Below, piece by piece: positions 13,064 through 62,221 of a stretch of DNA of 64,000 bases. A model generated the notes under the pieces. It was not told the origin of the DNA, ran no database searches, and worked only from the letters and a program-made list of their open reading frames with translations. A program made the translations under genes and the position numbers. Source of the DNA: Antitrichia curtipendula (Eukaryota; Streptophyta; Bryopsida; Hypnales; Leucodontaceae); contig OX579639.1 in NCBI GenBank assembly GCA_951230915.1, positions 7,006,001-7,070,000 on the forward strand. The letters run 5' to 3'. Numbering within the stretch: the first letter of the stretch is position 1; every line of letters starts with the position of its first letter.

Positions 13064-14587
13064 CTATGTATTCCTAGGATTTAACAGATTTTTTTTCTTC
13101 AAATCCTCAAATTCGCCACCGGAGTTCATCATCGCCGTAAAATATTTCTCTTCAAATATAAATGCAGTATCCTTGTACTCTTCTGAAATGTCTGCAGGAA
13201 GTGACGCCGTTGTCGTAGGATCTTGTTCGTTACAAACCCCCGGCAACTCTTCTGAATTCTGTGCATCCGGATGATTGTTATGACTTTGAGATTGTGCAGG
13301 TTGGAAGGGGGGTCGTTGATTTACAGTTGGCATCACATAAGTTTGTTGATTGATATGAATTTGATATGAAGGGTGAGGGTAGCGTTGCTGAATTCCAGTT
13401 GGAATTGGTTGTTGCACAGTAGTTCTCTGCGGATCATTACAAAAACTCTGTGGAATTCGAGATTGGTGGTGCAGTTGCTGATTTCGTGGTGCAATTTGTT
13501 GTTGTTGCTGAATTATACTAGTTGTTTGATGACGAAGATTGTTTTGAAATGAAGGATGAGAGTGGGGTTGCTGAAATTCAGTTCGCACTTGTTGTTGCTG
13601 GAAATTTATTTGATCCCAGTGGTTGTTATAAACGAAAGGTTGATGATGAGGTGGATGAAATCGAGGTGCAAGTTGTTGTTGCGGAATAGTTGTAGGATTA
13701 CCTTGAAATGAAGGTGTAAAGTGGTATAGTGTGATTCCAGTTGGAATTTGTTGTTGCGGAGGAGGTACTGGATTAGAACGATAACAATGAATTAGATCTT
13801 GAAGTTGAGGTTGCTCGTTTTCATGTGCAAATTGCTGTTGCAGAGTAGTTGTTTGATAATTATCATTGTGTTGAACTGGATTTTGAAGGTGGGTTGGTTG
13901 AAATCCAGGTGGAATTTGCTGTTGCAGTGATGAAGGAATTTGTTGATGCGACGCTTCTGACGTTGCTGGTTGCGTTTGAAATTGATTCGCTTGCTGATTC
14001 TCAAGTGCAATTCGTTGTCGCCGAGTAGGTATTTGATAATTATTATGTTGTTGAACTGGATTTCGAAGGTGGGTTGGTTGAAATCCAGGTGGAATTTGCT
14101 GTTGCAGTGATGAAGAAATTTGTTGATGCGACGACGCTTCTGATGTTACTGATTGCGTTTGAAATTGATTCGAAGATTCATCAGTTTCCACCACGCGCAC
14201 AGACTTTGATTTTTTGAGGGGTGAAAAGAGTCTGTTGCATCCTCTGCACACATACCGCGGTTGCTTCATCTTTCCATTGTTGAAGCCTCTAAATTTCGCT
14301 TTGTTTACCGTGCCACACTTGTCACACACCTTGTCAAGAATCTTCAATTCCTCTGGTTCTTCTTTCGGTAGTTTGGCATAACCATCCTTGTGGTGTTGTC
14401 GCTTTGGATTAGGGTTGAAAAAGTAGGGCTTGCCGAGAACGGAAGAGCAATCCAAACATTGGTAACGTGGTTGATCAATCTTTTTGTTATTAAAAAATTT
14501 AAATTTGATGTTGGAGGATCCACAACGGTTGCATTGCTCTCTCGGCATGTTGATGTCTTCCTGAGCTGATTCTTTGGAACTACCCAT
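13064..14587 (-). CDS. Double Dof-like zinc-finger protein with Gln-rich tail
   Basis: An intronless 507-residue ORF starting at ATG 14587. It contains two finger modules: residues 19-47 (CNRC, 21 residues, CLDC) and 88-117 (CDKC, 22 residues, CRGC). The first matches the CX2C-X21-CX2C spacing of plant Dof DNA-binding domains. Both share the Dof-like core FNN followed by QPRY and a cysteine pair. The Trp/Gly-rich C-terminal extension of canonical Dof domains is missing, and the second finger has one extra residue. Residues ~150 onward are rich in Gln, His and Pro, with an internal tandem duplication (the phrase QQQIPPGFQPTHL occurs twice), as in transcriptional activation regions. Known Dof factors have one finger, so this may be a divergent family. 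A role as a DNA-binding regulator is inferred. The ORF is undamaged but sits between two repeat blocks. Confidence 0.85.
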   Translation of the reverse strand: MGSSKESAQEDINMPREQCNRCGSSNIKFKFFNNKKIDQPRYQCLDCSSVLGKPYFFNPNPKRQHHKDGYAKLPKEEPEELKILDKVCDKCGTVNKAKFRGFNNGKMKQPRYVCRGCNRLFSPLKKSKSVRVVETDESSNQFQTQSVTSEASSHQQISSSLQQQIPPGFQPTHLRNPVQQHNNYQIPTRRQRIALENQQANQFQTQPATSEASHQQIPSSLQQQIPPGFQPTHLQNPVQHNDNYQTTTLQQQFAHENEQPQLQDLIHCYRSNPVPPPQQQIPTGITLYHFTPSFQGNPTTIPQQQLAPRFHPPHHQPFVYNNHWDQINFQQQQVRTEFQQPHSHPSFQNNLRHQTTSIIQQQQQIAPRNQQLHHQSRIPQSFCNDPQRTTVQQPIPTGIQQRYPHPSYQIHINQQTYVMPTVNQRPPFQPAQSQSHNNHPDAQNSEELPGVCNEQDPTTTASLPADISEEYKDTAFIFEEKYFTAMMNSGGEFEDLKKKNLLNPRNT

Positions 14588-16047
14588 GACTTTTTTAAAT
14601 TATTTTTTGAAGAAATTGTGGATCAAAACATGTTGTACAAGGTCGATGATATTGAAATCTGTTACACGCTTTTAAATTGCAGTAATTAATTAATGTTGTA
14701 TTCAAAGACTTCATATTCATAATATAAAAAACTTTCTAAACATTGGAGCAGAAAAACAAAATCATTGTCAAGCAAAATATGCCCAAAAGCATTGCATCTT
14801 AGAAATTAAAAGTAAAATTACTTTATTTGATATAAAGTAAATGAACCCTTTATATATACTTAAATTAAGCAAAATATCCCTAAAAATATTGCACCCTAGA
14901 AATTAAAAGTAAAATTACCTTCTTTTATATAAAGTAAAAGAACCTTTATATATTCATATGTTATATTGATGATGTTCATTTATGTAATGTAATGTTCTAG
15001 AAATTAGAAGCATGTTATCAATTTATATGTGACTAGTTGGACATGAGTAATTGTCACATTTGTAACATTTACTTTTTTCTATTTTTGTTTTTGTTTTCTA
15101 TTTTTGTTTTCTTTTTTTAATTTTGGATGATTGCAAGAAACACTTGTCCTATTTTTTTGTCACATGTTAATTTTGGAAGTTGTTTTGTGTCATAAGCTGA
15201 TCACGAAAATGATTGAATGAACATGAAATTCATTCAAATGTAAGCTTCCTATAGCAATAGACATTGTACTTGAATTGTTTCAATTTTTTCAAAATTAATT
15301 TAATGGGTTAGATTGAATTTTGAATATATGTCACACATGTTGTTTGGTTGGATTTTAGTACTATCAAGTACCTTTTATTGAAAAGTTACATTGCTAGTTT
15401 TGGTAGGCTAGCTTTTCTAATAGAAATACATGTTGAAAGTGTGTTTTGCATTGGCTTAAAGTGTGCTATATTTAGGGTGAATTTATGTTGAATGAAAAAT
15501 GATTTTTAGGATTCTATCTTTGATCTTCCTTATTTGCTCCTAGTTGGCAACAATGACTACTTTTTTTAAATTTAAATTAAAAAATTTAAGTGCATTTTCT
15601 AATTTTTAAAAATAGAAATAGAAACGTTTCATTTTTAGCATAAATTCAAATTTGTAGCTAAAGATAGTATTTCATGGTATACAAAAAGACTCAATACTAT
15701 TGTTGTGGGCGCGTAGTGCCTCCAATATGTCAATGTGAGCTATTTTTATGGCAAATTAAGTATTGCCATCCATCCTTGTCTCCAGTGATGACCATCAAAG
15801 TTGTTAGAATAATAGATCTGAAATCCAATCAACCATCCAAATTTCATGTTCCATGCCCCTAAGAGTATTGAAAGTGACTTGTAGTACAAAAAGTATTAAA
15901 ACTTTGAAAATAAAAAATGCAACAAGTAGAATAAGTATTTCTTGCAATCAACCTTTTAGATAAACACTAGTGTAGCCCTCTACCGTTGATCCAAAGTAAA
16001 AGATAATGCCCAAGGAAATCATTCTTTATAATTTAAAATATACACAT
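14588..16047. other. AT-rich stretch upstream of the double Dof-like gene
   Basis: The bases just before ATG 14587 should contain the promoter of the minus-strand gene, but no motif stands out. A ~60-base phrase is tandemly repeated (gcaaaatatgcccaaaagca near 14772 and gcaaaatatccctaaaaata near 14868, each followed by attaaaagtaaaattac). No other gene is visible. Confidence 0.5.
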
Positions 16048-20900: not shown

Positions 20901-21440
20901 TTTTCAAAAAATATTGAAAATTGACTCAAATAAAGGACTTCAAAGTTTATCTTAGAGTAAAGAATATATAACTAGCCACAAACTAAAACTCCTCATAACT
21001 TTTGACTCATTGATCAAAATGCAATGATTAAAAGCTTTCCACATATATATTATTCTAAAAAACCAATTTCAAATTTTTGTTTATGATAAAAGTAATTTTT
21101 TCTGATCTGCCCAAATTGTCCATTTACGGAAAAAAGTGACATATTAGGCTATAACTTTTTATTCATATTTCCAAATGTCATAAAATTTAGTGCATATAAA
21201 AGATATTCTTTGTCCCTACGTTCTATTAAAATTTCAGCCTAAAATATGCAAATCTCTAATCACATGTACTTGCCCAAAATTTCTATGTTGCCAAAAAATG
21301 CATGCTAATCCTTTAGGGGTTAAGGATTAAAACTAAAATAGAAGAACACGCTTTCAATCAAAATGAAAAAAAAGATGTGAAAATAGGCAACTGAGATAAT
21401 TACAATTAACATTTTCCAGTTGTTTTTTCTTTCAAGAAAA
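17971..21440. other. AT-rich repeat DNA without genes
   Basis: No credible ORF. The part at 20250-20560 belongs to a dispersed non-coding family also seen, reversed, near 34280-34460 and in fragments near 27945 and 46080-46200. A ctttaggggttaagg box occurs at 21312, a motif repeated in other AT-rich blocks. Confidence 0.6.
20250..20560 (+). repeat. Dispersed degenerate repeat, forward copy
   Basis: Diagnostic phrases are tgcacctattggttcaataa (20346), ggtgactaccttggtcat and acatgtaaccataggatctt (20507). The first two recur as reverse complement near 34315-34365. The third recurs near 27945 and 46170. No ORF is associated. Confidence 0.65.
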
Positions 21441-21474
21441 CATTAGAGACCATTTGAGGTCATTAGAAGGCCTT
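21441..21474 (+). repeat. Left terminal inverted repeat of the 12-kb element
   Basis: It begins CATTAGAGACCATTTGAGGT and continues to 21474. It matches the reverse complement of 33370-33403 with two mismatches. Both mismatches are transitions. Confidence 0.9.
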
Positions 21475-21572
21475 ATAGAGCGACCTCGGGCAAGGTGAAT
21501 CTCTAGACTTTTGGGGCGGGCAAGCCTCCAGCTGTGCGTGGGCAGCCATTTGGACGTCTGTATCTCCGTGCT

Positions 21573-21596
21573 GCTGGTACTAAGCCGCGGCCAAGT
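21573..21596 (+). promoter_or_regulatory. Shared GCTGGTACTAA box upstream of the transposase gene
   Basis: The sequence gctggtactaag plus nine further bases recurs at 28336-28359 with three transitions in 21 positions. Each copy lies ~350-400 bp upstream of a plus-strand gene of the element. A shared promoter, splice-branch or transposase-binding function is possible but unproven. Confidence 0.35.
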
Positions 21597-21923
21597 GTCT
21601 GCCTGTGTGTCGCGCATGCTGCCAAAACTCCAGTCACGTCTGGTTGTTTCACCGAGTGAATTGGCTGCATGTTAGTACAAGTGGTACTCTCTTCGCTGCA
21701 TAAATTATTAATTTCGATGGTTAAAATATTCATTTCCTAGAAGACTAAGTTGGCGCCAATCTCAACGTCTGCTGCCAGCGCACGATAAATTTAGCGTGAA
21801 ATTGAAAGTCAACTCTCTAGCGCATATTGTTTTGGTGGGATTGCGTAAGATGCAGCGTGGACTTATTTTGTTAGAGTACCCCGTTCATGAGAGTGCTGCA
21901 GTAACAGCTTTACGTGCGTCAGC

Positions 21924-24566
21924 ATGGCGTTGAGGGACGTGACAAACACTTTGGGTAGCTATTATGTGCCTCAGATTAAGTTGCACCCGAAGTATGCTCC
22001 TCTTATTCGGAGAGGCCAAAAATTGGAAGATCAGCCTAGTCCCGATAGCTTTGAGCAGAGGAGAGCGGCCAGTGAAACTAATTTCGACCTTTGGACTGAT
22101 GGTAGACTGTATCCTTTAGACCCTGCAACTACGAGACGACCAAGCTTTCGAACCACAAAGCAGTACATGGAGTATCTTTATGAGGGAGAAAATGGTATGC
22201 TTGGGTACACAAAGCGGTTGAGGTCTTCTTACGTTAACATTGACAAAAGCATTGGGCAGCATAGTGGAGAGAGAATGGAGGATTCAGTGAGCCGACTTCA
22301 AGCGGAGGTTTCTAGTCAAGAGAGTTGCATTCTTCAGCTACGGGCGCAATGTGATGAATTGCATGTCAGAACGAGTAGCATGGCGCTTGCTGAAGCACAA
22401 CACAGAGAAGAGCGGCTGCAGTTAGAGGCTGACGTGATGGCTTTGGAGATCACATGCGCAAGGCTAAGGGAGCTTGTGGCGGCTCATGACATGACAATGG
22501 CTGAATCTGAGGAACGCGAGGAGCGGGTTGGCGCACTAGAATTCGAATTGACAAGATGTAGAGAGGCCTATGAGAAGCTGGACGAGAAGATGAAGAAAAT
22601 GGTGGAAACGCCTCTGGGCTATAGGGAGCGAGTTCGGAAAATGAAAAGCCTGGATGAGCTTGCACCCGGCTCTGGCCATGCAAAACGAAGGAGAACCGTC
22701 CTGAGATGGCAAATTCAGCCGTCGACGGTGCAGCACGTACAGAAAATCAACAGACGACAGGGGAGGAAGAAGAGGGTGGGGGGTGAAGGAACTTTGCACA
22801 ACAAAACGGCTACGGTTCTAGCATGTTTATTATCTGCTGGCGAGGCCCGCAAGCTTGCAGAACAACCAAGAATGAGTCAGGCGACCACTGCGGCTGCAGT
22901 GGGCATGTTCAGAAAACTACAGAAAACATTAACGGAAGAGGTGATGTTCGGGGCTTGCGATGCATCAGGAGTGAGCAATAGAGGGTATGTGGCAATAAGC
23001 AATGCAATGAAGCATTGGGTTCAGTTGATTGCTCCGGAATTGAGGAGAGGTCTTCTGCCATCAAGGAATTGTCTGTCGCACTTGCGCAAGTAGATGAATG
23101 AGAAACTTCCTCAATTTATAGGAGACTATTACCACATTGAAGGTCGCTGAATAATACCCGAGGTCAGAGTTGGGAAGAAGATTGTTAGAGGAGCTAAAGA
23201 AGTGATTCTTGATAGCAAAAACAATCTCTTTGCTCAACTCGAAGTTGTTCAGCGATCCATGGTTTTGTTCTATGATATGACTGTCCAAGGTATCATTTCT
23301 GATCTCAACTCATTTATGTGCTTGACTAGGAAATAGACTGTAGGTTATTAGTGGGAAGGGCAGTACTTTATAAATTTTAATTCAAGCGGAATTAGATGAA
23401 GCATTGGGCGGTCTTGATGAAGCACAAAACGGTATTAGATCAAGCATTGGGTGGACCTCAAGATATGCATGAGAGAATGGTTTTCATAATATTCCAAACA
23501 GAAGTTCAAGAGCGGCTTTGCAGAGTTCAAGAGCAGTATCGTGTATCTAGTTTATAGATTGCTGAAGCACACCTCAGGAAGATAGTTGGGGATTTCATCA
23601 TTAGACTGATCGCTCTAGCAGTTCTTGAACCTTGCTTAGACTCTCATGGTTTAGGTCTCTTTTAATATAAATCTTATATATGCAGAGTGCAACGGCGGCC
23701 CGCTTGTCTTCGTACTGAAATTGGACGAAGTAGAGGTTTTGCAGGAGAAGAAGTTTGAGCGCGTGAGCTTGACTTTGATGAATCGTGCATTGGATCCAGA
23801 GATTCAGCGTAATGATGAAAGATATTTCTCAGTGCAATCTGAACAGGAGATTTGGCCCATAGGTTGCTTCCAGGTGGGCAAAGAGTCTTACGAAATTCTG
23901 AATTGGGTATTTGAGCAGACGAAATTTCCGGAGGTCATTAAGGCCCAGAACGAAGGGCAAGAGCTAGAGGTACCAGGCCGTGGCAGCTTCACGGTGGAGT
24001 GGCACATGAACGCGGACATGAAGACTATTAAGTGCATGAATGGGCTTCAGCATGGTCCCTCTTGTAAAATGAATTGCATCTATTGTGAGCAGAAGCACGA
24101 GAGAGCAAAAACCATCACTGTTGCGGATGCAGAACACATCGCCATGATTAGAGGAAAGGGCGAATGGCAGGGTGGCTTGTTTGCGTCCAGGATTCAAGCC
24201 GAACCCGTCAATGCAGCCACGCATCCAAGATGGAAACAGGTGTTGCCTATTCCCCTGTTACGAACGCACATGTGCACTCTACATGCACTAGTTCGCATCT
24301 GCGAGAAAATTCTGCATTTGCACTTCATGTTCATTTGGAACATGCAAGACAATGCTAGGAAAGCCCAAGCGATAGACTTCATGGAGAAAACGCTTTCCGC
24401 TATTGGAGTTGAAGCAGAAAACTGTGTGCTGAAGCAGGATGTGAAGAAGTCTGGGAAGTCTGGTAATGTTGTCATGAAACCAAGCCTGCACGGTGGAGTG
24501 GCCATAAAGCTATTTGACTTCCGCACTTGCCTTGCTGAATCGAATAGTCAAGTCTTCAGACTCTGA
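21924..24566 (+). pseudogene. RNase-H-fold transposase, RAG1/Transib-like core, decayed and 3'-truncated
   Basis: Exon 1 runs from ATG 21924 to 23289 and exon 2 from 23686 to 24566, with donor caag|gtatca and acceptor tatgcag. The joined frame continues across the junction. Exon 1 is broken by TAG at 23091 and TGA at 23148, but the frame stays coding-like through both. The N-terminal ~110 residues are unrecognised. Residues ~115-255 are a charged coiled coil, followed by a basic stretch. Exon 2 shows an Asp in VLKLDEVEV (codon 23724), an Asp 97 residues later in MNADMKTIK (codon 24015), then CIYC 20 residues on (codons 24075 and 24084) and a helix with LHALVRICEKIL. As I recall, mouse RAG1 has D600, D708, C727 and C730, so the spacing is very similar. 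The zinc-binding His pair and catalytic Glu expected ~200-250 residues further on are missing. The family assignment is an inference from motif spacing. Confidence 0.7.
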
Positions 24567-25367
24567 ATCTGGTTCTAGATCCGCCAGGCCTTTTCGGGCA
24601 ACTTCTAGTTTGTTGTGAACAATGCGGAGTTTCTTCTCGGCCTTCCCGAACTGCGCTTCGCATTTCCGCAAGCTAGATGCTGCTGCCTTCACCGGTGAGC
24701 TACCAGGGCCATCGTCTGCTTCGGCGTCCTCAATGATGTGGCACAACGCTTGTATCTGCTGCCGCAACGCCACCGCTCCGAGTTTCTTTGGATTACGGGA
24801 AACATAGCCTTCCCGCTTGCCTCGCCGTTCCAAGGCCTCCTCCACCCAGTTCACTTCCTACTTGTGCACAAACGTAGCGTAGCACCCCCGCAAGAACTTC
24901 AGGGAAAAATAATTATTGTCCGGAGTCTCACCATAGACTTTGAACCACTGACTGCAAAAGAGGGTTGCTTCAGCGGGGTCTAGACAGTCCGCTATCTCAT
25001 AGCGTCCACTCTTGGGAGGCCATCTCTCCAATATCTCATGGTCGTTGGTGACTGGTAACTCCTTGAGAGAGATTCCTCGATTGCAAAGTCCCGCCACATT
25101 GACGAAGAAACTCTCGTTGTATACGGCGTTGCGGCCGAGAAGAACCGGGGCTACCTTTATCATAGCCGCCTTCAGCGACGGGGAAGTGTCTCCAAAGTCG
25201 AAGGGTTCCGAAAATTCGGAGTGCGCGATCGCGTGAACCCCCTCCGCTGCGGAAGCATCGTCCACATCGTCAATCGGGTCTTGATTCACTTTACTGCGGC
25301 GCGGCTTCTTTGCTGGGGACTCCTGTCGTGCAGGGGGGCTCCTCTTCGCTTTTCCGCCCTCTGCCAT
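24510..25367 (-). pseudogene. Paralogue of the RING-finger element protein, short form, with one nonsense codon
   Basis: It reads from ATG 25367 to the stop at 24510, with an in-frame TAG at 24860-24858 flanked by CYATFVHK and EVNWVEEALERR. It is homologous to the plus-strand gene at 28743. KVAPVLLGRNAVYNESFF pairs with KRAPFLLGSDRARYPTLFF, NVAGLCNRGISLKEL with HTGGLCNEGLPFQKL, and FVHK-stop-EVNW with FYQKNKNVKW. LRQQIQALCHI matches LREQIQAVLNV. The N terminus is basic and Pro/Ser-rich (KKPRRSK, a likely nuclear signal). The C terminus is a short coiled coil, and the RING domain of the longer paralogue is absent. The 3' end overlaps the transposase 3' end by 57 bp on the opposite strand. No known domain was recognised in the shared region. 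Confidence 0.7.
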
Positions 25368-26689
25368 TGTAGCCAAAATCTGGCAAAACCGGCCAAATTA
25401 GAAAAATGGCAAATTAGAGACAGAAATACCCATAGCGGACCACGCGGCAACAACCGATCACTGAGCATGTAGGATCTGAAATATGGCAGCGTCGAATTCA
25501 ATCCTGAGGTAACTAAATTTTGATTACAAGAAGGTCGTTCGTCCTCAAAAATGTAGCAACTCACCAACTCCTTAACCTCACATTACCATTCAAAAACCTA
25601 AACTCAATGCATGGCCTGCGGCAGCAAACCAAAAGACTAAGCAGGGTATGATTCGAACACTGCTAGCGTTCAATTTCATAACAAAGGAATGTATACTTAC
25701 AAAAGAAGCTGAATATTTGGATGTTCCAGGTGAAGCACCGCATTCAATTTGCTTCCACCAGCAGCAGCGCGTTCAATTTGCTTCCAGCTCCAGCAGCAGA
25801 CACTTCTGGCACAAGCAACGGACACTCAAAACACAACCTGAAACGCTCCACAATTTCGAGTCTCCAACACAAGTACACTCGAAATGCGGGTAAGCTTACT
25901 AAGTGAACTGCAAAGGAATGTCCACAGTAACTTAATTCTTAAAATAAGCCATGCTGAAATAGAGCATTAAGTGCTCTATACAAGCACGGCGGCTGTGCTT
26001 CCAAGTCTCATGAGCCTGTACAAAGGTCGTACCACGTGGCTGCATCATGAACTTAAGCTTATTTGATTAAGCACGAGGCTGATGAGATTCACGTTGATTC
26101 TAATCATTCACTGAGATTGCAGGAAGTCGACATCTTAAGCAACTTATAGCCACCTTAACGGCAGTTTTAACCCCTAAACGTCTCAATCCTTTTCTGAATT
26201 TTTGTACATTTTTTGCTCATATCTTTGTACAGAAATATCATTTACCAAAAATTCATGAATTTGGACATAAAGAAAGGTTATCTTTTCTAATTTCAAATAT
26301 TGCATTGGATGAATGAAAAGTTAGTTGGACTTTACAGTATCTGTGAGAAACTGTATGAGTATATGTTTTTTAATATAATTGTAAACCATTCTTTTATATA
26401 TTTTATGGAATATATATTCTCCATACTTTGTACAAGGTTCAAAAAATAGAGGTTTCAATTCTTTTAATATATTAGAGTTAATTGTAAAGGCACTTGTAGT
26501 TTGAATCCAAAGTGTTAGAGGAAGGTTTAACTAAAATTAGTATAAATAAAACACAATACCAAACTCTATCAGATCCTACACTATAAGAAATTTGTATCAT
26601 TCTGTCGGATGCTTTTTAAGAAATCTATTGGCCGAAGGGCTTTTTTAACAAAAATAAAACTTGATGATTTTGCATTACATTAGCCTCAG

Positions 26690-27150
26690 TAATATACTCT
26701 CTCCATTTTTTTGCCAAAGGGTTAGTAAAACCTCCTCTAGGCTCTCAAAATTTTATTTGGATCAATACCAAAGACTTCTTTTATTCTCCCCATTTTTTTC
26801 CTTGTTAGTTAGCAAAGCAGTCGGCCTCACTCCCGGAAATTTATTTGGATGGAGTCCAAACTTCTCATACCCTCTCCATTTTTTTCCTTGTCAGTTAGCA
26901 AAGCACTCCTTCACTCTTGGAAATTTATTTAGATGGAGTCCAAACTTCTCATACCCTCCCCATTTTTTTCATTGATGGTTAGCAAAGCACTCCCCTACTC
27001 TAAAATAGCTTATTTGGATGAGGTCTACACTTCTCATACCCTCCCCATTTTATTCCTTGTCGGTTAACAAAGCACTCCCCCACTTCTGGAAATTTATTTG
27101 AAGGTAGTCTAGACTTCTTTTACCCTCCCCATTTTTTTCCCTTGGGTTAG
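26690..27150. repeat. Tandem repeat, ~85-bp unit, about six copies
   Basis: The anchor ctccccattttttt (with small variants) recurs near 26699, 26786, 26873, 26956, 27041 and 27125. Between anchors the text is similar: ttagcaaagcactcc, ggaaatttatttggatg, gtccaaacttctcatacc. The copies are divergent and non-coding, inside the 12-kb element. Confidence 0.85.
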
Positions 27151-27899
27151 TAAAGCCTCCTCGAGGCTCCCGGATCTTAATGCCACTTTTAATGATATTC
27201 AGCCATCTTTTTATGAGATGGTAAAACATCTTTTTCATTTTTTTCTTTTGGGGGACATGAATCAATGTACATGGCAAAAAATTGGTGTTGTAATGAACCT
27301 CCGTTTGGAGGAGGCCTAGGATTACGTCAGTGTGAATTAAAATTTTTATAGATGTGGGAGATTGAGGTTACTAGTTCATTTTGGACAATAATGGTTCTTA
27401 CAAATGTTTTTTTGCTAAAGCTAAAATTAGTACTAGCGGTCATTTTGGTAGATGCCACTAGATGACTTCTATTTTTTTAATAAATCTTTCTTCATTGGAA
27501 GGAAAGTGAACTTGTGTCTTTAAATCCAAAATGATTGAAGACACCCCCCCTTCTTTTTTTTAATTTCAATTTACATGGAATTTAGGTTTGGCTTTTTTCC
27601 TATTTGCAAACATTATTTTGAAAGTTCAAAATTTATTCATATAGTATCAAAATCATTCATGCTAAAGTACACAAAAATCTTTTTTTGATTGCTAATGAGA
27701 TTTGAATTCAAATCTAATTTGTGCTTATGGTTTGAATTGGTGATGATTATGGTTGCCTGCTTATCTTTGATATCCAACCATTGCAATTTGGGTTCCATAT
27801 ATTCTTGAAGTATAACTATTCACTTACAATTTTTTCTAAACCCATAAAGTTCCAAAGCCTAGTTTCTATCAAAAGTCACTCATAACTCAAAAACACTCT

Positions 27900-28060
27900 A
27901 TTTCTACATGCAAATTACCTTTCAATTTGTTTTTTTGGAATATGTAACCGCAAGATCTTTGCGCTTGCCTCATGTATAACTGTATGGAAGAAATTTGAAA
28001 AACTTTGACCATGTATATTGTAAGATATTTGCAATTAAAGTAAATAAAGAAAAATTGGGC
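27900..28060 (+). repeat. Dispersed degenerate repeat fragment
   Basis: Contains tatgtaaccgcaagatcttt (27943), followed by tggaagaaatttgaaaaa and tatattgtaagatat. This is the same phrase order as at 20507-20600. Confidence 0.55.
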
Positions 28061-28335
28061 CGCATTGCTCGACTTCCTTTTTTGCCATGTTTCATCTTAA
28101 CTTAAAATTTTTGGACTACTAATATTGGATTTTGAATTTCAATTGCTTTTTATCCCACTTTTGTAGGTGGGAAACGAAGACTACAATACTTATAATGTCT
28201 ATGCTGAAGCATGATGGCAATGGCAGAAGGGCAAACGTCTCAGTAAATTTATCATGGGTCATATGGATTTGGGACACGGCATGGCTTAATAATGAGAGTT
28301 ACAACAGGTGATGACTGATTGGACTTACCAAGGCG

Positions 28336-28359
28336 GCTGGTACTAAATCACGGCCATAG
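28336..28359 (+). promoter_or_regulatory. Second copy of the GCTGGTACTAA box
   Basis: It matches 21573-21596 over gctggtactaa and the following cggcca, and lies ~400 bp upstream of the ATG of the RING-finger gene. Its function is unknown. Confidence 0.35.
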
Positions 28360-28742
28360 TTTATGAATAAACTATTGTAAGGCGTCACCTTACAACCTCG
28401 CTGTCTGTGTTGCTTTTTTGAATTCCCTCATGCTCCAGCTTACTGGAGGCTGCAGCACGCACTTGCATTCCCCTTCTCCGCTGCATCCGTAGTTCAATTG
28501 TTTCCCACTGATAGTGCTCTAGCCACAGGTTGCTGTGTTTGTCAGACATTGTTTAGTCGTGTCCACAGAGTACTTGAGAGAACCTAGAAGCAACCCCTTC
28601 AGAGATACATTTCTTGTTGATCGAGTGTTGCAGCCGCAAGTTGAATTGCAAGTTAGTCTTCGTGCAGCTTATTTACGAGGATCTTCAAATTGCACCCTTC
28701 GTCCTTTCGATTAGATTACAGGGTGATCAAGTGCTGCAGAGC

Positions 28743-30647
28743 ATGGCTTCAGGCCACAGATCGGGGCGTCAATCCGAGAATGTTGTAATTCAGCTTGAGT
28801 CTTCCAATGATGACTCAATAGAGACGGAGGATGATGCAAGTGCGGAGGAACTTGTGAGCGATTCGGAGGCGAATTTTGTCACAATATGGTCACACGCATT
28901 CGACCTTGGGAAGTTTCCCCAAGCCATGTCGCTGGAGCTGATCAAGCGCGCTCCATTTCTCTTGGGAAGCGACCGTGCTCGTTACCCAACTCTATTCTTC
29001 CAACACACTGGTGGACTCTGTAATGAGGGCCTGCCATTTCAGAAGTTGGCTAATGACAGCCTCTTTCCATTGGTTGACCTTGTGGGCATGTATCCGCTTA
29101 GCAAGAAGGGAAATCGACACCCGCTGAAGCTGATTGCAAACAAGGCTACGGCTCGGGACGCGCTGCACATGTACCAGCGAGTCTACGGCGGGACACACCC
29201 GGACAATGGCGAATTTGGGACCAGCTTCATCCGCGGACTTGCGTTGTTCTATCAAAAGAACAAGAATGTCAAATGGGCGGATAAAGCAGCGTTGCTGGCA
29301 AAGACACGAGCGTCTTCCCCTGGTAAGAACCCTATGAAGCTCACCCCTCCATGCTTGCGGGAGCAAATTCAAGCAGTGCTGAATGTTTTTGCGTCCTATT
29401 TTGAAGAGGCTGCTCGTCACAGTGACCGCCCCAGTGAAGTTGTCTCAGTTGCACCTCGTCCGCTCTTAAACCCCGTTCCTCTAGCAACAAGGGTACCCTC
29501 AACTGCAACAGTGCCCGCACATGCTCCTCTGCAGAAGCGTAAGCGGTCGCCTCCGGACCAGCCGATTGCTCCATCCGCAAACAAGGCTCCTCCTGATGTG
29601 CGTAGTCCTTTGGCTTCAGCACAACGGAATGTCTCCAAGATGGAAGCCCTCATTCAAAAACGTCGGGTTGTGGATGACAACATTGCTGGGTTGCGGCAGA
29701 TTGAGGACAATTTGCAAAGGGCGGTGGCTGTTGCGTTAGTGGACTGCAGGAATTTTGCTGAAGCAGAAAATCTTCTCTGGGATGAGCAAACGGAACTGCG
29801 GAAGCAATCGAAATTGGTTGTGGACAACTTCGGAGAATGGGCCCGATTAAATGCCGCTGTCAGAGCAAAATCTCGAGAAGCAAACGACGTCAGCGTTGCT
29901 CTGGAAGCTGCTGAAGCTGTCGTCACCCAAAAGAGGACTGAAGCATTGTCTGTCCAACAGTCGCTGCAGGACTTGAAAGCAGAATCTCGGGAGCTCAGCA
30001 TGTTGATTGACAAGCTAATTGTTCAGAACAGCTCCATTCGGCCGCAAGCTCTCTTGGAGTTATTGCCCTCGGAGTCCACCGGCATGGATCTTCTTGCGAC
30101 AAATGAGCCATGCGCTAGTTGCAGCAAGTTCTTTGCGGATCAAGCATTTGCATCATTCAGTTGTGGGTGCTTATTCCACCCCCATTGCATGTTCAAGACA
30201 GCTCTTTCAAGACCGCCTTCTTGCCCAAGGTGTGCGGCATCTCCAAGCAGGGTGTGGATGGAGCAGTGGGGATTTACAAATACCTCGGAGGCAATGAGGG
30301 TTCTCTTTAAAGTCTCAAAAGAACGTATAGTGGCTCAACGGGAGGATACATGGGAAGTGTCAAAACGGCAGTGTGCATCCTCAGGTGCCAGTCGAGTCGT
30401 CACCGATTTTGAAGGCCGGAGTCAGAATGAAGGTTTCAATGAAGCGTTAGCAGCAACAGATGGAGGCTCAAAGACAGCGATGGCATTATCAGCTCCAATC
30501 TGTGCGGAAGTCACGGTAGCAACACCAACAAAATGCAGTGTGGACAAGGCGGTAGCACCAAAGGCCGGCAGTGTGGACGGGGCGGCATCAACCAGTGTGG
30601 ACGGGGCTTCAGCAATAGATGTAGGCTTGAGCGAAGTGGAGGAATAG
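28743..30647 (+). CDS. Element-encoded protein with novel N domain, coiled coil and RING-type finger
   Basis: 634 residues from ATG 28743, the first in-frame ATG. The open frame extends back to 28614 without an ATG, and an acceptor-like attacag lies near 28720. Residues ~20-45 are very acidic. Residues ~49-210 form the domain shared with the minus-strand paralogue at 24510-25367. KRKR near residue 265 is a likely nuclear signal. Residues ~298-425 are a long coiled coil. Residues 457-497 form a RING-like finger (CASC, then CGCLFHPHC, then CPRC), with several of the expected Cys/His pairs present. The tail is Ala/Ser/Val-rich with short repeats (CSVDKAVAPKAGSVDGAAST). A RING suggests E3 ubiquitin-ligase activity or scaffolding, which is inference. 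The N-terminal family is unrecognised. The reading frame is intact, unlike most other genes of the element. Confidence 0.8.
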   Translation: MASGHRSGRQSENVVIQLESSNDDSIETEDDASAEELVSDSEANFVTIWSHAFDLGKFPQAMSLELIKRAPFLLGSDRARYPTLFFQHTGGLCNEGLPFQKLANDSLFPLVDLVGMYPLSKKGNRHPLKLIANKATARDALHMYQRVYGGTHPDNGEFGTSFIRGLALFYQKNKNVKWADKAALLAKTRASSPGKNPMKLTPPCLREQIQAVLNVFASYFEEAARHSDRPSEVVSVAPRPLLNPVPLATRVPSTATVPAHAPLQKRKRSPPDQPIAPSANKAPPDVRSPLASAQRNVSKMEALIQKRRVVDDNIAGLRQIEDNLQRAVAVALVDCRNFAEAENLLWDEQTELRKQSKLVVDNFGEWARLNAAVRAKSREANDVSVALEAAEAVVTQKRTEALSVQQSLQDLKAESRELSMLIDKLIVQNSSIRPQALLELLPSESTGMDLLATNEPCASCSKFFADQAFASFSCGCLFHPHCMFKTALSRPPSCPRCAASPSRVWMEQWGFTNTSEAMRVLFKVSKERIVAQREDTWEVSKRQCASSGASRVVTDFEGRSQNEGFNEALAATDGGSKTAMALSAPICAEVTVATPTKCSVDKAVAPKAGSVDGAASTSVDGASAIDVGLSEVEE

Positions 30648-31718
30648 TTCGCTCTTCTAGACTAACATACGCGACAGGTCTCCCCCCAAACAAGTGTATA
30701 GTGTATATCGCATTAGTGCAGTAGGAAGATGGAAATCACAACATTATAAGCACCTCTTCAAATTCAGCATAATGTTGCTGACATTGATGAGGTGTTTGTT
30801 ATTTTGAGACGTAGGGAGTGCAGTTTTGGTATTCATCTGCATTGCAACTTTTAATAAAGGATACCGTTTGCCTAAAACTGTTGTATGTCAAAATGCATGT
30901 CATCCTCTTTCTGTGTGTGAATTCAGCAAGTGCAAGTTACAAAAGCGGTGTACCACAAATTGTCATTCTCTCGTCTTCTGTCTTCCAAAGTGTTTTGTTG
31001 AATCATTCAACTAATGGCACGCAAATTTCATCTTTGAATTCAGTTCCATATAAAAATGTCATTCATCCTCTCTTCTTTTCTATTAGTGTGAGCTGCTGAA
31101 GCATTCCTCTGCTGTCGCACTGCCTAAAAACCCTGTATATCCCTGTATATCCTGTCAGTGTCATTTTTCTGTATCATTTACTTTCATTGTGTGACTGTGC
31201 TGCTGAAGCATTCACCAGTTCATGCATTGTCTAAGAAAACCATTTCCGTCAAAGGTGTTGTCTAGTCTGAATGTGGCACGTAAGCTTCATAAAACGAGCT
31301 AGTGAACCAAAGATTGATCATACTGCACTACAACCACATAAGCGGAATATATAGACAAGACCTCTGCACTGAATTCAATATACAATTTTATAGCCTCCAT
31401 CAAAATTGAGAGTTACAAGTGAATTGAACGCATCCCTGGGCTTTAAAAATGGAAGACGTTTCTCACACCTGCTACACCTTTACAAAATCCTAGACAACGC
31501 AATGTTACGATAGCCACCTACAAATCGCCTCGGGAGTCACACTGTCTACCGTGCTGAAGCCTTGCTGAAGCATGACTCCTACAAAACCATCTTGAATCTC
31601 GCTCCTAGTGGCATCACGGCTTGGATCTCAGTGCACCGTTCCAGCCGATGGTTTATTTGCGGCAAGCAGCAATTCAAGAACTCATTAGTATAGTGAAGTA
31701 GATGTCATAAGCAGCAAT

Positions 31719-32903
31719 TCACAAATTTTCCTTCAATGTGGGAAAACAGCATACCTTTCTGTCGGGTCGACCAGGCCGCTCGATAACGAGGTCGTAGTAG
31801 TCAGGGATGACATCTCGTGGCAATAGAATAGCAATCTCGTTCCGAATTTGGAACACAGGCCAGGACTTCCCTACCTCGAAAGCAGGCATTACTTCATCCC
31901 TGAACACGACCTCCACCCTCACCATGTCTGGAAGCACAGTCTAATCCATCGCCACCCACTGTGGCCCTTCACGCCTATACCTCACATAGCAAAAGTTCAT
32001 GTACAGCATCTGCCGTGCTAGATGGTAACGAAATCCCACACTGCCTTTGCTGACAACGCATTTGATGATGTCTTGTCCGCTTTGCCACTTTTCATCCCAC
32101 CCAGGATCCATTAAGCTCGCCAGAAGCAAGGCAGAGGGAGATCGGAAGACATACATTGCTGGAGTGCGGCGAATGTCGTCTGCTACCGCAAACAAATCGG
32201 CCATTACGTGCACTGGCAGGAACCACTGAACGTGTGCAATCTTGCTTCCCGTGCTCCCCTTCATTGCGGCCGCAACGTCATGGGACATCTTCAAACGAAA
32301 TGCCTCAGACGTATGCATGTCAGGTATCGGCCAAAATACGTCACTGAGCTTTGGAAGCAGCAACGGCTCCAAACTTCCATACAACTCAGAGCCAGACCGA
32401 GGTACATACACTGCTCTAAGAAAGAAAGTGCCATTCTGCAGCAGCTGTCTATGACTCCTCGCATTGCGTCCAGGTTTGCCAATTTCGTGGTGTAGCACCA
32501 AAATGACATCCAAAATCGACGAGGGCGGCACCAAGTCATCCCAATATGAGGCATACAAGTAGTTGCATGCGCGTGGCTCGCTGGCTAGCGACACTGGATC
32601 CAGGTCCAATTAGCGACGTTAGTAAGCATGGCGCACCTAGATTGCCACCAGCTTCTGTACATCCCTGCCTCCAGTGGTGCTGGCATGAAACTTGAAGCGG
32701 ACAACCTGCGCCTTCCACGCGCCCGCAAAGGATTCCTCACCGTGCACACAAGTATCCTTCGACCAAGGACCGCTAGCTGCAGGCTTCAAAGTAACCCATG
32801 AGCCAATCTCAATCCGTAGAGGAATCCACCTTCCGGCAGCATCCTTGTCGTTGTGAATCACAACAGACTGCACCTCAGCTGCTGGGTTATCCTGCCCTAC
32901 CAT
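31719..32903 (-). pseudogene. Third gene of the 12-kb element, unrecognised, broken or spliced
   Basis: One minus-strand frame runs from ATG 32903 to 31719. It is interrupted at 32639-32637 by TAG, followed by two TAA codons, and at 31943-31941 by TAG. The first part (RIEIGSWVTLKP, GAWKAQVVRF) looks like a compact beta-rich domain. The middle part (DLDPVSLASEPRACNYLYA to GPQWVAMD) is long and open. The last part (LPDMVRVEVVFRDEVMP to FPTLKENL) ends normally. The interruption near 32640-32582 has a donor-like TAG|GTGCGC, a perfect TACTAAC and a possible acceptor CGCTAG. It might therefore be a very short intron rather than damage. The same-frame continuation supports one gene. No family was recognised, and no function is proposed. 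Confidence 0.5.
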
Positions 32904-33369
32904 GATTCCACTATTCAAAATTTTCAACTATCAAGCACGCTAATGTTGGCAGCTGAACCCCCTTCTTTGCTTTGACCTCAACGTAACTACTGCTTGCGCT
33001 TCCAAAGCATGACTACTATCCATGTGGCGCCTTGTGGCAATTTTTCCGCTACAACAGGTCCCCATCTGTGCGGCCAGTAACGCCGTTCATAGCTTATTAT
33101 ATTGAAGTTATTCAATTTAAAAGTGTTTATCCTTCGAGCATGTGTACAAGGAACTCGAGCACAAGAGTGTTGTCAGCTGCCGTGCTTCCATAAAATAATC
33201 GTAGTTTATTGACCCGCAAATTGTCCGCACTCCACCAGGGTTTGGGTCAAACCTTCCTCATTGGCCGCACCCCCAGAAATTCTGACATCGTTGGCAGCAT
33301 GACAGCATTGGTAGCACAGTGGAGAGCAGAGGTGGCACCGTCCTTTTCTCAGCAAGTGGCTGCCCCGCA

Positions 33370-33403
33370 AAGGCCTTCCAGTGACCTCAAATGGTCTCTA
33401 ATG
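33370..33403 (-). repeat. Right terminal inverted repeat of the 12-kb element
   Basis: Read on the minus strand it begins CATTAGAGACCATTTGAGGT, identical to the left end over the first 22 bases. Over 34 bases it has two mismatches. Confidence 0.9.
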
Positions 33404-38974: not shown

Positions 38975-39387
38975 TAAGGTCGGACCACCCATTACCAACC
39001 AGGGATGGATTTCCAACCTGTAGAGGTAAGCTAATTCCGACCAGGCAGATTTTTTTGAGAATCGCTAGATTTAATGACATGCACGATACCCAAGGCTGCG
39101 AGGAGCAATTGCTAAATGTCACGTGTTAGTTTGAAATTTGTATACATGAGTAGGAAGTAGTCTCTTCTATGATCGGAATTGCAAGACTCTACATATTGGG
39201 TATTAGTTCAGAACACTTTTTGCCTTCTTAAATTCACAGAAATTTCAGTTTTGCAAATAAAATTCTGAAAATTCTGCAATCACAATATTTTCTATCTTCC
39301 TACATGGGAAAAAATTCCATTGCACTAAAGAGTTCACCATTTTCTCTACAGATCCTTAAGTGATTAGGTATGGGTGGTCCTACCTTA
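38975..39387. repeat. Inverted repeat pair at the left end of the second element
   Basis: taaggtcggaccacccatta at 38975-38994 is inverted at 39368-39387 (17 of 20 positions match). The 373 bases between are non-coding. This may be a nested foldback element or a duplicated terminus. Confidence 0.6.
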
Positions 39388-40045
39388 TTTGCACAGGGAG
39401 ATTCTGAGGCTATGTACGCTCTGAGTTTCTACTTTTTAGGGTTCTGTAACCTAGAAACTTTATGCTCAAAACGTACTACTGGACACGACCTTAGGTGGAC
39501 CAGACCCGTTTGCACAATTGGTATTAGGACCAAATCCAAGACCGGAAGTGTCATGTATTTGGTCCAAATCCCTGAAGATTTGGTTAGGGGCAGTGAGGGG
39601 CAGTCGATGAAAAAGTTATTCGGAATCACTCATTGGGAACGCGGTTTGGGTAAAAAACGACGACCAGACACAGAGGATGATGTGGCCGTTATGGCAAGGC
39701 AGCGAATTTTCGTTCGTTCGTTCGTAGATCAGTCGCCGAAACTTGTAGAAATCTTGTTCGTTCGAGACGTTCGTTCGAAACAATCATCGGCCGAGGCTAG
39801 CGGTCAAATTGTGGTTCGTTTCAGACGTTCGTCGCCGAAGGTGGCTCCGGCATCATCGGTGAAGGCATGTTGATTTAAGGTCAACCGGTCGAGCGGTTTA
39901 TAATCGGCCGAGTGGTCAACTGGTTTAGGGTCGAGCGATTGAGCGTGGAGTTAGTTCGACCATACTTTGAGAGCACTTTTAGAATTTTCTGTAATCTGTG
40001 AAGTTAGTTCAGAGGTTTAGGGTTGGCTTGGCCGTAATCTCTGAA

Positions 40046-44781: not shown

Positions 44782-45327
44782 TCAGTAACCTGTGGACAAT
44801 GGACGATCCAAAATTCGCAAAACTAGCGAATTTGGGATTGGCATGCGGTCATAGTTTGGACGCCACCAAAACACATGCAATTGTGGAGGGCTCAGTGGCA
44901 CATTGTTGGCATGAAAGATAACAAAAGCATTGGAGGTGTCCGGCATCATGAAGGTTGGCTGAGATCCTACACCAAATGTATTATCACGACCAGTCATGAT
45001 TTGAGGTTTCATTCTGTCTTTGATCCATGCTCCAGATTCTTGACAATATTTGTATAGACCAATGCAACGACCACGGTGTTGCCAGCCGATAGGTAATATA
45101 TGGCCCTCTGATGAAGTAGCAATAATGTGTGACACACAAAGTATCCACACACCACGCCAATTCTCATAGTCACTAAAGCACAACGCATCGCTCCACATAT
45201 AAACTTCAACAATGTTATCAACGTCAAGCGTGACAAGGATGTCTCCACAAACTGGTTCAAAGGAGAACAAATGAGAATGTATTGTACCAAAATTTAGTGG
45301 CACAATCTCTACCACGGCCTCTGCCAT
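44782..45327 (-). CDS. Unrecognised 181-residue protein in the second candidate element
   Basis: The ORF starts at ATG 45327 and ends at TAA 44782. The sequence is compositionally normal and rich in aromatic and Cys residues (YMWSDALCFSDYENWRGVW, IGWQHRGRCIGLYKYC, LHVFWWRPNYDRMP). No family, signal peptide or membrane segment was recognised. It may be the first exon of a longer gene. It lies between the USP fragment and the HECT gene, on the USP strand. Confidence 0.45.
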   Translation of the reverse strand: MAEAVVEIVPLNFGTIHSHLFSFEPVCGDILVTLDVDNIVEVYMWSDALCFSDYENWRGVWILCVSHIIATSSEGHILPIGWQHRGRCIGLYKYCQESGAWIKDRMKPQIMTGRDNTFGVGSQPTFMMPDTSNAFVIFHANNVPLSPPQLHVFWWRPNYDRMPIPNSLVLRILDRPLSTGY

Positions 45328-45418
45328 TGATGCAAAACTAATGCAAAAGCCACCCTAGTGATGACGATGAATGGAGAAAACCCTTCGAGGGTGGTACCTT
45401 TACTGATTTTTACGTCCG

Positions 45419-45535: not shown

Positions 45536-47183
45536 ACACCACGGAGGGCGGGAGAGAGGAGAAAAGCAAACCAGAGGCACCAGAGGCAGGAGTGCAACCA
45601 GAACGAGAGAAGCAGACGGGAATGATGACGATGAATGGGGAACAATGCGAATGCTACAAACATCATGTATAGCAACTCGGGGGAAGCTGCATGTTGTGGC
45701 CGTCACCAAAGATTGACATCCATATTTCAAACATTGTTCATGATTGTAGCATGTTGAATATTTTAACAATAATTTATATATTTTGAATTTCCGTACTTTC
45801 CGCCTGTCATCTTCAATTCTTCATAAGCATGATGTTATTTTGCCGTGGATTGTACCAAGATGCATTATGGGGATATGTAAAGTACAAGGATCAAGTAGAA
45901 ATCTGGCTAAGGACACAATACTAATACATTGCAAGGTATATTATTGCATGCATGCAAGGAAAAACCAGAATAAGCTTCACATCAAATCCAGGATATACAA
46001 CTTTTATAGGGATCACGAGCATCAATAGGGCTTAGAAAATCATAGCTTTTATAAAAATTATATCAAATTAACCCCCAAATGTTTTGGACTATGTTTTCAT
46101 CAAAATTACTCCAAAATTGCCATTTCTAGTGCCAGTATCAAAAAAAAATTTAAATATATTTTTGGACACATGTAATCAAAGGATCTCGTAGTAAGCTTAT
46201 TTGAGAGTATGGGAACGGGAAAGGTATTATACTCTCGAAGAAGAAGCTGCTGGATCCGGAGCTTCCAGGGAGGCACTCGGCCTCCAACCCTGCATGTGAA
46301 GGCACCGCTGTACTTCCGTATCAATCGAATCGTGCATCGCAGAGGCTTTTCCTAGAAGAGAACCAACGATCTGGTGATGCCCACATACATTTCCACGACA
46401 CTGCTGATGTTTCAGGCTCTCACTTGCCTGCAACGAGCACTCCTGCACAGTGGGGTCAAGCCTCCACTGACGAATCCGACCCGGACTTCCAATGTCTTTC
46501 ACGAAGGCGTTTATATAAGAAAAATCGGCAAGAGAATTCAGTGGTGTCCGGAGGATCCGGAAATGATCGATCGAGAAGGCGGACATGCTTGAGTTCGCGG
46601 AGCCTACCATAGCCCCTACCAGTCGCCATCAAGGTACTGTGGAAGTGACCGCACTAAGACGGACGATGATGACTTCGATACTGACGGTTGTCATATTGTG
46701 TATGAGTCGGACCAAGAAGAGGAGACATTGGAGTTCTTCGATTCAACGATAACACCCTGAACACGGCGGCTGATTGAAATTATGCGTGTGAACTCCGGTG
46801 GGCGCTCTGCAACAACCAATTTTTCATCATTGCAGGTACCTACATATACTCAGAGACGACATGAATGAAGTCTTATCGCATAAAGAATTTCTAATTTCGA
46901 AGGGGACCTATGAGAAGTATATTAATCTAAATGCCAAATAAACAAATATGGCCCCTTGTAATGGATATTTTGCTTATACAGTACAATAGAACAACCTAAA
47001 TCCTAAACTACATTGGTAAATTGCATGTCCGTCATGTGCACAGCGACAGGACAGCATGGCTATAGCCCGACGGACGACGAGGGCGGTCACCCCAATGGCT
47101 CCAAGCAGTGCTGAGCGACCAGTTCTCATATCTCCAGATAGAAGACAGACGATGTAATTTGTCCCTGCTCACACAGAATTGAG
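45536..47183. other. Region upstream of the HECT gene
   Basis: 46060-46200 carries a fragment of the dispersed repeat (ccaaaattgccatttctagt, acatgtaatcaaaggatctc). 46230-46780 is more GC-rich with several short open stretches on both strands (for example SCTQ-type and MPATSTPAQW), interrupted by stops. It may hold a decayed N-terminal exon of the HECT gene, but no exon can be defined. Confidence 0.4.
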
Positions 47184-60180: not shown

Positions 60181-62221
60181 TGGCGGGGATTGCAAAATTC
60201 GCCCGAGGAGTTTGTAGCGGAACTTGTTTGGTCAGCCACTATCCTTCACGATTCACGAACATTTATATGTATTTAGTATTTTGAGTGCCATTGAATGAAT
60301 TTTCCTGTGAGACTAGTGATTATTATATTGTGTTAACAAGTTTTCTTAATGTTGTCTATGTTTATCAATTTCATTCTTCCTTAATGCTAACTTGATGACG
60401 AGGGTGTACTTGATTTGGAACAAATATAGAATGTTTCATATGAGCATACTGAAAAGTTTGAAAAGAAGTTCAATGATCCCTGAAAGCTTAGACTCATTGC
60501 ACAAAATCTGTAGTCTTGGATTGCTCTTCAACTTTACGGAACGGAGAATCCGGTTAGTGAGGTGATTCATCAGAAGATGGTAAGTTGCTGAAACTGCAAG
60601 TTGTATGAACCTTAACATTACCTTGTATTTTTGTTGTTTTTGTGAATCGCTTTAATATCGTGAAGCATAAGTACCGGGACAAATATTGTGAAGCATAAGT
60701 GTTCCTATATTGAACCAGTACACATTGTTCATGCATGATTTTTTTATTTCGCCTTATTGTGCATGATTTTTTGTACAGGAGGTTAAGTAACATGCTCAGA
60801 AGAGTTACAACAATGTTATGTAGGCTTAGAAGAGGTACTTTTATCTTAACATTAATTTCATTGTAAAATATGAGTGTACTGTAAAACAGTTTGGGTGCTA
60901 TTTTGAGTGTAAGAAGAAACTTTGGTTAATGGAAGCCATGTTTACCATCTTCATATTTATTAAAATGATAGATTTTGAAGAGATTGGTTTTTAAATTTTC
61001 CAAGGGCCGGATTGAAATATCAGATGTATCCATGTGTTTCATAATATATATAAATTTCAGATGTATACTAGTGAAGGTTTTGAGCTTTTTGCACTTGAAT
61101 GTGTAAGTTTTGTTGGTTTGAATACACAAAATAAAATAATATGATCATGTTTTAACATGTGTGCAGGTTTTGGGAACACCTGAAAATCTTTACCTAAGTT
61201 TTCTTTGTTGATGTAGGGGATTTAAGGACAAGCATAGAGAATGGTTGAATTAGCATGCATTCCATCTACAACTCCACAGGCCAATGCATGAGACAGATAG
61301 ACCCACTGTTACATATTCTGGAGAGAGAAAATATTATCACTGATTGGCGCAATGAGGTTGGGTTGCCTACACTACATTATATGAAGTCTCTTGCATTAAC
61401 TCATCTAGTTCAATAGTAAATTAAACTAGTTTTCCAGAAGATTTTGCCATTGACAACCTTGCAAGAGAATATGGTTAATTTTGGTTTAAAAGGACTTTGT
61501 GCTTGTCATTAGATTATGGATTAGATAATACTCAACAGCTGGGAGGCTCAAGAGCGTTAAGGTGGAGGGCTCAAAAACAGTTCGGGCATTAAGGACCGCC
61601 CCTATAAATGTGCAGAAAACAGTCCAGAGGGACTGTAAAATTGAATGAAGTGGTTGGTCTAGAAAGTACAGGTCCTAACTGTGTGCTTTTTGAATGTGCA
61701 TGGGTCCAAAGGAGTGACCATAATGTCTGGTTCTCAGTCAGATATGAACGCTCATATGAAGACGGAAGTGCAATTAATGGATTGCATGAAAATCCAATTT
61801 AGAATGAGGAGTGATTTGTTTGGCAATGTGGTCTGAACCATTTTTTAATGGCCATAAAATAGAAAGATGGATTTGGCACTGACAAGCATTCAAGAAAGTG
61901 ACGCTTGCTGAACATTTTTAAAATGGGAAGGCGTGCTTTCTAAGGTTGAAGCCGTCGCTTTTAGAAACTGAGGTGATGGATTTTGTTTAAAAAAAGGAAT
62001 GTCCATTAATTTAATGAAAAAATTGCATCCCATGAAATGGCGATAAGACATCCATTTTCAATGGAGGCGCACGGAGAGACTTTGTGCTTCTATAGTCCCA
62101 TGCATTGCAGAAGTGGGCGATAGCACATCATAGGAATTTTGTGAACTCACATTTTGCACTTTGCTTCTAAGATTCATGAGCAAAGCTTTCTCTGAGCGGA
62201 GCAAAGTTTGACAGTAGCATC
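60181..62221. other. Gene-poor stretch before the pogo-type transposase
   Basis: Short coding-like scraps only, for example WIALQLYGTENPVSEVIHQK ending at a gtaagt donor near 60579, and VLFECAWVQRSDHNVWFSVR around 61700. No complete gene can be defined. The terminal inverted repeat of the pogo-type element may lie here but was not identified. Confidence 0.4.

Follow-up and report, generated by a model that had tools for sequence, protein, structure and literature searches.

A decayed multi-gene DNA transposon with a RAG1-like transposase core in the moss Antitrichia curtipendula

RAG-like transposons, among them ProtoRAG and AanRAGL of a pelagophyte alga, carry a RAG1-type gene together with a convergent second gene, which in ProtoRAG is RAG2L (available text of PMC9435367), and Transib elements leave a target duplication of about 5 bp (available parts of PMC8355894 and PMC9435367). 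Elements of the broader CMCT clade in general produce target duplications of 2-5 bp, according to the accessible sections of PMC12730594. The element described here lies in a 64,000-nucleotide stretch of the genome of the moss Antitrichia curtipendula (assembly GCA_951230915.1, contig OX579639.1, positions 7,006,001 to 7,070,000, forward strand), hereafter the window, in which an initial annotation had proposed a RAG1/Transib-like catalytic core at 23686-24566. With a probability of roughly 0.8, this exon is part of the transposase gene (gene A, exon 3) of a decayed DNA transposon at 21441-33403, which represents a multi-gene plant lineage with a RAG1-like enzyme.

The residues by which the core had been recognized were confirmed on reading the open reading frame (ORF) 23655-24566(+). 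The first Asp is D24 (codon 23724), the second follows 97 residues on as D121 (codon 24015), and 20 residues past it stands the CX2C pair C141/C144 (codons 24075 and 24084), with LHALVRICEKIL downstream at the spacing claimed; the VSLTLMN strand and the ES-E-L block (GKESYEIL) are in the same frame, and the mouse RAG1 spacings quoted for comparison (D600-D708 = 108, D708-C727 = 19) are consistent with the RAG1 numbering of the profile alignment discussed below. Of the two boundaries proposed for the core, 23686 is indeed the first base past a GT...AG intron (23290-23685), whereas the stop at 24566 lies outside gene A: DNA identity with the intact relative L023 is 97.5% over 21440-24515 and stops there, the later codons of the frame falling outside the gene. 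In a 37-row alignment (A1, 36 of 74 proteins plus the window exon), every row has D121 and C141, and conservation reaches 90% or more at E35, R36, N43, R44, E77, C144 and H210; several rows lack the first Asp, as they start further on, and in a 42-row alignment (A2, 41 of the 99 proteins found plus the window exon) this residue, D411 of the relative P0078, is invariant. Because the catalytic motif is conserved in both alignments, it is not a chance resemblance. Searched alone against Pfam and PDB sequences, the window exon returned chance matches only.

The remaining residues of the putative active site come from a last exon, best seen in F20, a related element elsewhere in the host genome, where exon 3 ends ...HVTHYM|GTGAGT and exon 4 begins tag|HNLVRHGPWYVETYGSLAVWNNQGMEKSH. 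Exon 4 was detected in 19 of 19 loci examined, corresponding to 17 distinct places since L003/L023 and L008/L024 each name one place twice, and in relatives it supplies H-x4-H and the third acid. Core and C-terminal block occur together in 3 of 99 database proteins (P0078, P0080 and P0098), and D411, D508, C528, C531, H591, H761, H766 and E785, in P0078 numbering, are invariant in 7 of 7 sequences (alignment A3). Thus the predicted arrangement, D-D-E with a zinc-type insertion between the second D and the E, corresponds to the RAG1/Transib-type plan, with H-x4-H and E located from sequence alone rather than from the fold, and CxxC and H-x4-H would together bind zinc.

Comparison of predicted structures leads to the same enzymes. 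An AlphaFold model of P0078 searched with Foldseek against the PDB gave 14 matches at E<=0.001, consisting of 13 RAG1 chains and HzTransib (best E 5e-9), and the next match stood at E 1.1; RAG1, lancelet RAG1L and HzTransib ranked top for the full-length relative in Foldseek and VIA, whose reports speak for listed families and leave unlisted ones open, and RAG1 and RAG1L ranked top for the window exon itself. A virus structure library returned nothing at E<=0.001 (best 0.024). It is very improbable that the protein is an RNase H-fold transposase of another kind (hAT, P element, MuDR or other) that acquired its zinc insertion by convergence. The model of P0078 shares with the RAG1 core (mouse and zebrafish structures in the PDB) a predicted fold over 410 residues and the order of D-D-E, as well as a GS-x3-W-x3-G-x-E block within which the second His and the E are 18 residues apart in P0078 and 19 in RAG1; it differs in that identity is about 14-15%, the N-terminus of gene A is a long coiled coil, and no RAG2-type gene was recognized in the element in Pfam scans of its genes B and C.

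At the level of profiles, the core scored 36.0 against RAG1 over 316 columns in hhalign, as compared to a mean of 16.5 and a maximum of 26.1 for shuffled RAG1, and RAG1 residues D708, C727, C730, H795, H937, H942 and E962 fell on identical residues. With trimmed tails and own-genome last exons (39 rows, leaving out P0079 and P0093, which are without the start motif), the comparison of this one pair reached E 7e-4 at a probability of 26.5; an earlier run with the A2 core, whose tails were misaligned past the splice site, had given E 0.021 and a probability of 2.3. The RAG1-like reading therefore holds for the predicted fold and active-site plan, and suggests that this kind of enzyme has a strongly diverged branch in plants; RAG1 itself is the V(D)J recombinase, which assembles antibody genes.

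Several observations weigh against a closer assignment. Identity in the fold alignments with RAG1, RAG1L and HzTransib is 12-16%; when RAG1 is split in three, the C-terminal piece alone is significant, which weakens sequence homology of the whole core, and from the first Asp to CxxC RAG1 scores no better than its shuffles, making that stretch non-discriminating. RAG1 D600 is outside the hhalign alignment. Pfam lists no RAG1 family for any of 12 relatives whose lists are complete (down to E<=10 for P0078 and P0098, E<=0.5 for ten others), nor among the 25 listed of 47 families for 42 members. The best PDB profile match of the family had E 0.41, and the A2 profile (42 rows, without a good last exon) found no RAG1 in the PDB up to E 10. 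Furthermore, a C(2)C...H(3-4)H plan is common to EnSpm/CACTA, Mirage, Chapaev, Plavaka, ESTA and Lanisha, as set out in the available portions of Kojima 2025 (PMC12730594). Assignment to RAG1/Transib rather than to the broad CMCT clade is thus not proved.

This raises the question of whether the element is instead a diverged CACTA/EnSpm (or Mirage/Chapaev) transposon, with RAG1 on top owing to the choice of structures available for comparison; to our knowledge, RAG1, RAG1L and Transib are the only CMCT members with solved structures. Such an origin is possible, if on balance unlikely. C(2)C, H(3-4)H and, for the most part, 5'-CA..TG-3' ends are common to the CMCT lineages (accessible text of PMC12730594), and the element has CATTAG..CTAATG, CxxC, H-x4-H and E; CACTA transposases (PF02992) are moreover very common in the host genome, with at least 150 scored matches from 580 candidates. 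Set against this, the core profile scored 18.8 over 14 columns with an own-genome CACTA (a single sequence of two joined exons, L066 and L067, not a family profile), which is within the range of shuffled RAG1, the Pfam lists cited above hold no CACTA family (PF02992, Transposase_21), and no 2- or 3-bp target duplication rises above chance. Chapaev, Mirage and Plavaka, compared through Pfam profiles only, gave no match in the scans of relatives. As regards the CMCT clade as a whole, the element agrees in C(2)C and H(3-4)H (7 of 7 sequences, A3), D-D-E and CA..TG ends, the last seen in both the window element and F20, and some CMCT members likewise carry extra genes; it departs from the clade in being without a 2-5 bp duplication and in its lack of profile similarity to the one CACTA compared. 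The safest wording is that this is apparently a new CMCT lineage, of which RAG1 is the nearest relative among those compared.

The RAG1-like core belongs to an element with the following features:

21441-33403: whole element, 11,963 bp, ends CATTAG...CTAATG
21441..21474 (+): left terminal inverted repeat, begins CATTAGAGACCATTTGAGGTCA
21924..23090 (+): gene A exon 1, transposase N-terminus, MALRDVTN..., coiled coil
23073..23289 (+): gene A exon 2, runs on from exon 1 here (tblastn 41%, E 5e-13)
23686..24515 (+): gene A exon 3, RNase H-like core, with D1 23724, D2 24015, CxxC 24075/24084, CTLHALVRICEKIL
24516..25367 (-): gene B1, type B, convergent with gene A, in-frame stop TAG 24858-24860
28578..30647 (+): gene B2, 689-codon open frame, coiled coil, RING-like C-terminal Cys/His cluster
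31761..32885 (-): gene C, broken by internal stops, convergent with gene A, N-terminal part possibly a BAH domain
33370..33403 (-): right terminal inverted repeat, ends ...TGACCTCAAATGGTCTCTAATG

The ends are defined by a 21-nt repeat, ATTAGAGACCATTTGAGGTCA, perfect at 21442(+) and 33382(-) with 0 expected (100 shuffles), within inverted-repeat arms of 51 nt that are 80% complementary, and the 120-bp left end matches 8 further genome places. Each gene has a counterpart in F20: exon 1 of gene A is 32% identical to F20 exon 1 (tblastn, E 1e-52), gene B2 is 29% identical to F20 gene B (E 1e-43), and gene C matches three pieces of F20 gene C at 35-53% identity (tblastn, E 5e-13 to 1e-61). Gene B1 shows 37% identity with F20 gene B, and 66-68% with the antisense gene downstream of gene A in L024, L028 and L029. 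A foreign insertion had been considered for the antisense frame at 24510-25397 and was dropped, as gene A is followed by a B-type gene in convergent orientation in L023, L024, L027, L028 and L029. Exon 4 of gene A was not found by tblastn within the window, and its loss by deletion is the simpler reading as compared to a foreign insertion. Because gene A has lost its last exon and has in-frame stops within exon 2 (TAG 23091-23093, TGA 23148-23150), the window copy is dead; gene B1 also carries a stop and gene C is broken, and a ratio of nonsynonymous to synonymous substitution (dN/dS) of 0.63 between the window and L003 is in keeping with a dead copy. Between genes B1 and B2, at 26694-27161, a tandem array holds an 84-87-bp unit in four to six copies.

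The wider family has been active recently. A search of the host assembly (400 Mb, 303 contigs) with exon 3 found at least 132 places, 18 of which, F20 (10,209 bp) included, have equal score and a 395-codon frame. Six further copies are 99.74-99.81% identical to the first part of F20 over ~7.2 kb, and the 120-bp left end of F20 recurs, identical, at 17 genome places; the element family is many-copy and recently amplified. Gene order varies among relatives, as read within the 10 kb fetched per locus: gene A(+) is followed by a convergent gene B in L023, L024, L028 and L029, by B(-) and B(+) in L027, and by a convergent gene C in L009, L025, L031 and L032, while gene A alone was seen in L026 and L030 and the order in F20 is A(+), B(+), C(-). 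In contrast to F20, gene A exons 1, 2 and 3 of L009 (L009:3693-6224) are intronless in a single open frame, with N-terminus and catalytic core sharing 845 codons, and families therefore differ by the loss or gain of introns. Purifying selection acts on the core across families, with dN/dS of 0.09 (L010/L027) and 0.07 (L003/L005); five further pairs were saturated at synonymous sites.

Insertion sites bear directly on whether this is a true Transib or RAG-transposon member that invaded a plant. For F20, the left end was retrieved for 17 copies and the right region for 16; 14 copies with both ends remained after three of the 17 were dropped (right end off the contig; masked; right repeat not at the expected place). 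Target duplications of 4-8 bp were found in 0 of 14 insertions, and matches of 2 bp (1/14 vs 0.81 expected) and 3 bp (1/14 vs 0.44 expected) are at chance level; the window copy is likewise without a target duplication (CTTTCAAGAAAA|CATTAG, CTAATG|GCACCTTAACAC). The ends of two subfamilies read CATTAGAGACC.. and CATTAGAAGAAAATTC... In favor of a Transib or RAG-transposon origin are the fold matches, in which RAG1, RAG1L and HzTransib are best, the convergence of genes A and C, like that of RAG1L and RAG2L in ProtoRAG, and the Transib-like proteins reported in plants (available text of PMC9435367). Opposed to it are the absence of 5-bp duplications in all 14 insertions, the 12-16% fold-alignment identity, where identities within RAG1L and Transib average 26-37% (same source, available text), and the lack of a RAG1 family in the complete Pfam lists of 12 relatives. 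The missing duplication and the divergence largely refute close membership, which is now quite improbable. The element further departs from Transib (HzTransib, 6pqr/6pqx) in its three or four genes and its CATTAG ends, and from RAG-like transposons in its duplication-free insertion and in a gene C with a weak BAH match in place of kelch or PHD matches. Thus, fold, order of catalytic residues and zinc pair stand from the core first proposed, whereas membership in Transib does not hold, given 0/14 5-bp duplications and a sequence similarity far below the ordinary.

How joining might proceed without a duplication is a matter for guesswork, a blunt joint or trimming on repair being two ways in which a gap could be avoided. 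Some F20 insertions lie in imperfect palindromes (for example L035/L051, L039/L055 and L042/L058; flanks L033-L065), and the 14 flank pairs fold better than mispaired flanks, with permutation p values of 0.003 (15 nt), 0.017 (20), 0.060 (30) and 0.098 (50). Pooled statistics are weak, the best p of a stricter dyad count being 0.008 among 27 tests, and insertion into palindromes is a lead only.

Among the accessory genes, gene B appears to combine a coiled coil with a weakly RING-like domain: F20 gene B matched RNF8/RING2 chains of the PDB at E 0.08 and above, and the best PDB rows, a V antigen at E 0.0013 and 0.0049, align with the coiled coil and were taken as chance. For gene C, the best PDB profile match was the BAH domain of BAHCC1 (E 0.23 whole, 0.091 for the N-terminal part), followed by designed proteins (E 0.12 and 0.35), and Pfam gave chance matches or none; as a lead only, it may be a BAH chromatin reader. 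Sequence scans of genes B and C against Pfam found no kelch or PHD match. Both genes travel with the element and would probably aid targeting or regulation. A bolder reading gives the lineage a deep branch of its own, in plants, on the RAG1/Transib stem: a transposon in which a RAG1-type recombinase is combined with a convergent chromatin reader, with BAH taking the place of the PHD of RAG2, and a RING-type gene, and which inserts without duplication, possibly into imperfect palindromes. This reading is doubtful; if true, a RAG1-type enzyme and a chromatin-reading partner have been paired more than once.

By analogy with characterized systems, the gene A protein is a probable catalyst of its own transposition. 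It would dimerize on both CATTAG ends, and its D-D-E site, holding metal ions, would cut the element out, with the zinc-type insertion positioning the active site. A hairpin step is part of the reactions of RAG1, Transib and hAT, and here too the flanking ends would pass through hairpins, after which the excised element would join new DNA without target-site duplication.

Elsewhere in the window, a 511-codon frame at 13064-14599 (-) has two stretches of Dof-type zinc finger (PF02701, E 1e-18), the remainder being rich in Gln; Dof factors are plant proteins and usually have one finger. A second transposon lies near the window end, at 62180-63427 (+), where a Tc5/pogo-type transposase DNA-binding domain was found (PF03221, E 2.7e-6). 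Open frames of 159-190 codons occur at 39364-39873 (+), 44782-45354 (-), 47142-47621 (+) and 48478-49032 (+), the first three with no Pfam match at E<=1.

The initial annotation considered a plant copy with its own gene set notable. Plant RAG1 kin are not news in themselves, because Transib-like plant proteins have already been published, 39 canonical ones being given in the available part of PMC9435367. Beyond those plant proteins, no literature on moss, bryophyte or plant RAG1/Transib elements was among the matches listed, which is no proof of absence, with Repbase outside the search. What is apparently new is a plant lineage of the CMCT/RAG1 type that has diverged, carries several genes and does not duplicate its target. 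In the relatives scanned, Pfam misses a many-copy plant lineage with the whole D-D-E and C2H2 plan, and this suggests that sequence searches understate the age or the spread of the RAG1-type fold. The accessory genes may parallel RAG2, and gene C, if it reads histone marks, would correspond to the PHD of RAG2, a lead rather than a result. Near-identical copies of the element provide a system in which excision, hairpin formation and duplication-free joining could be tested.
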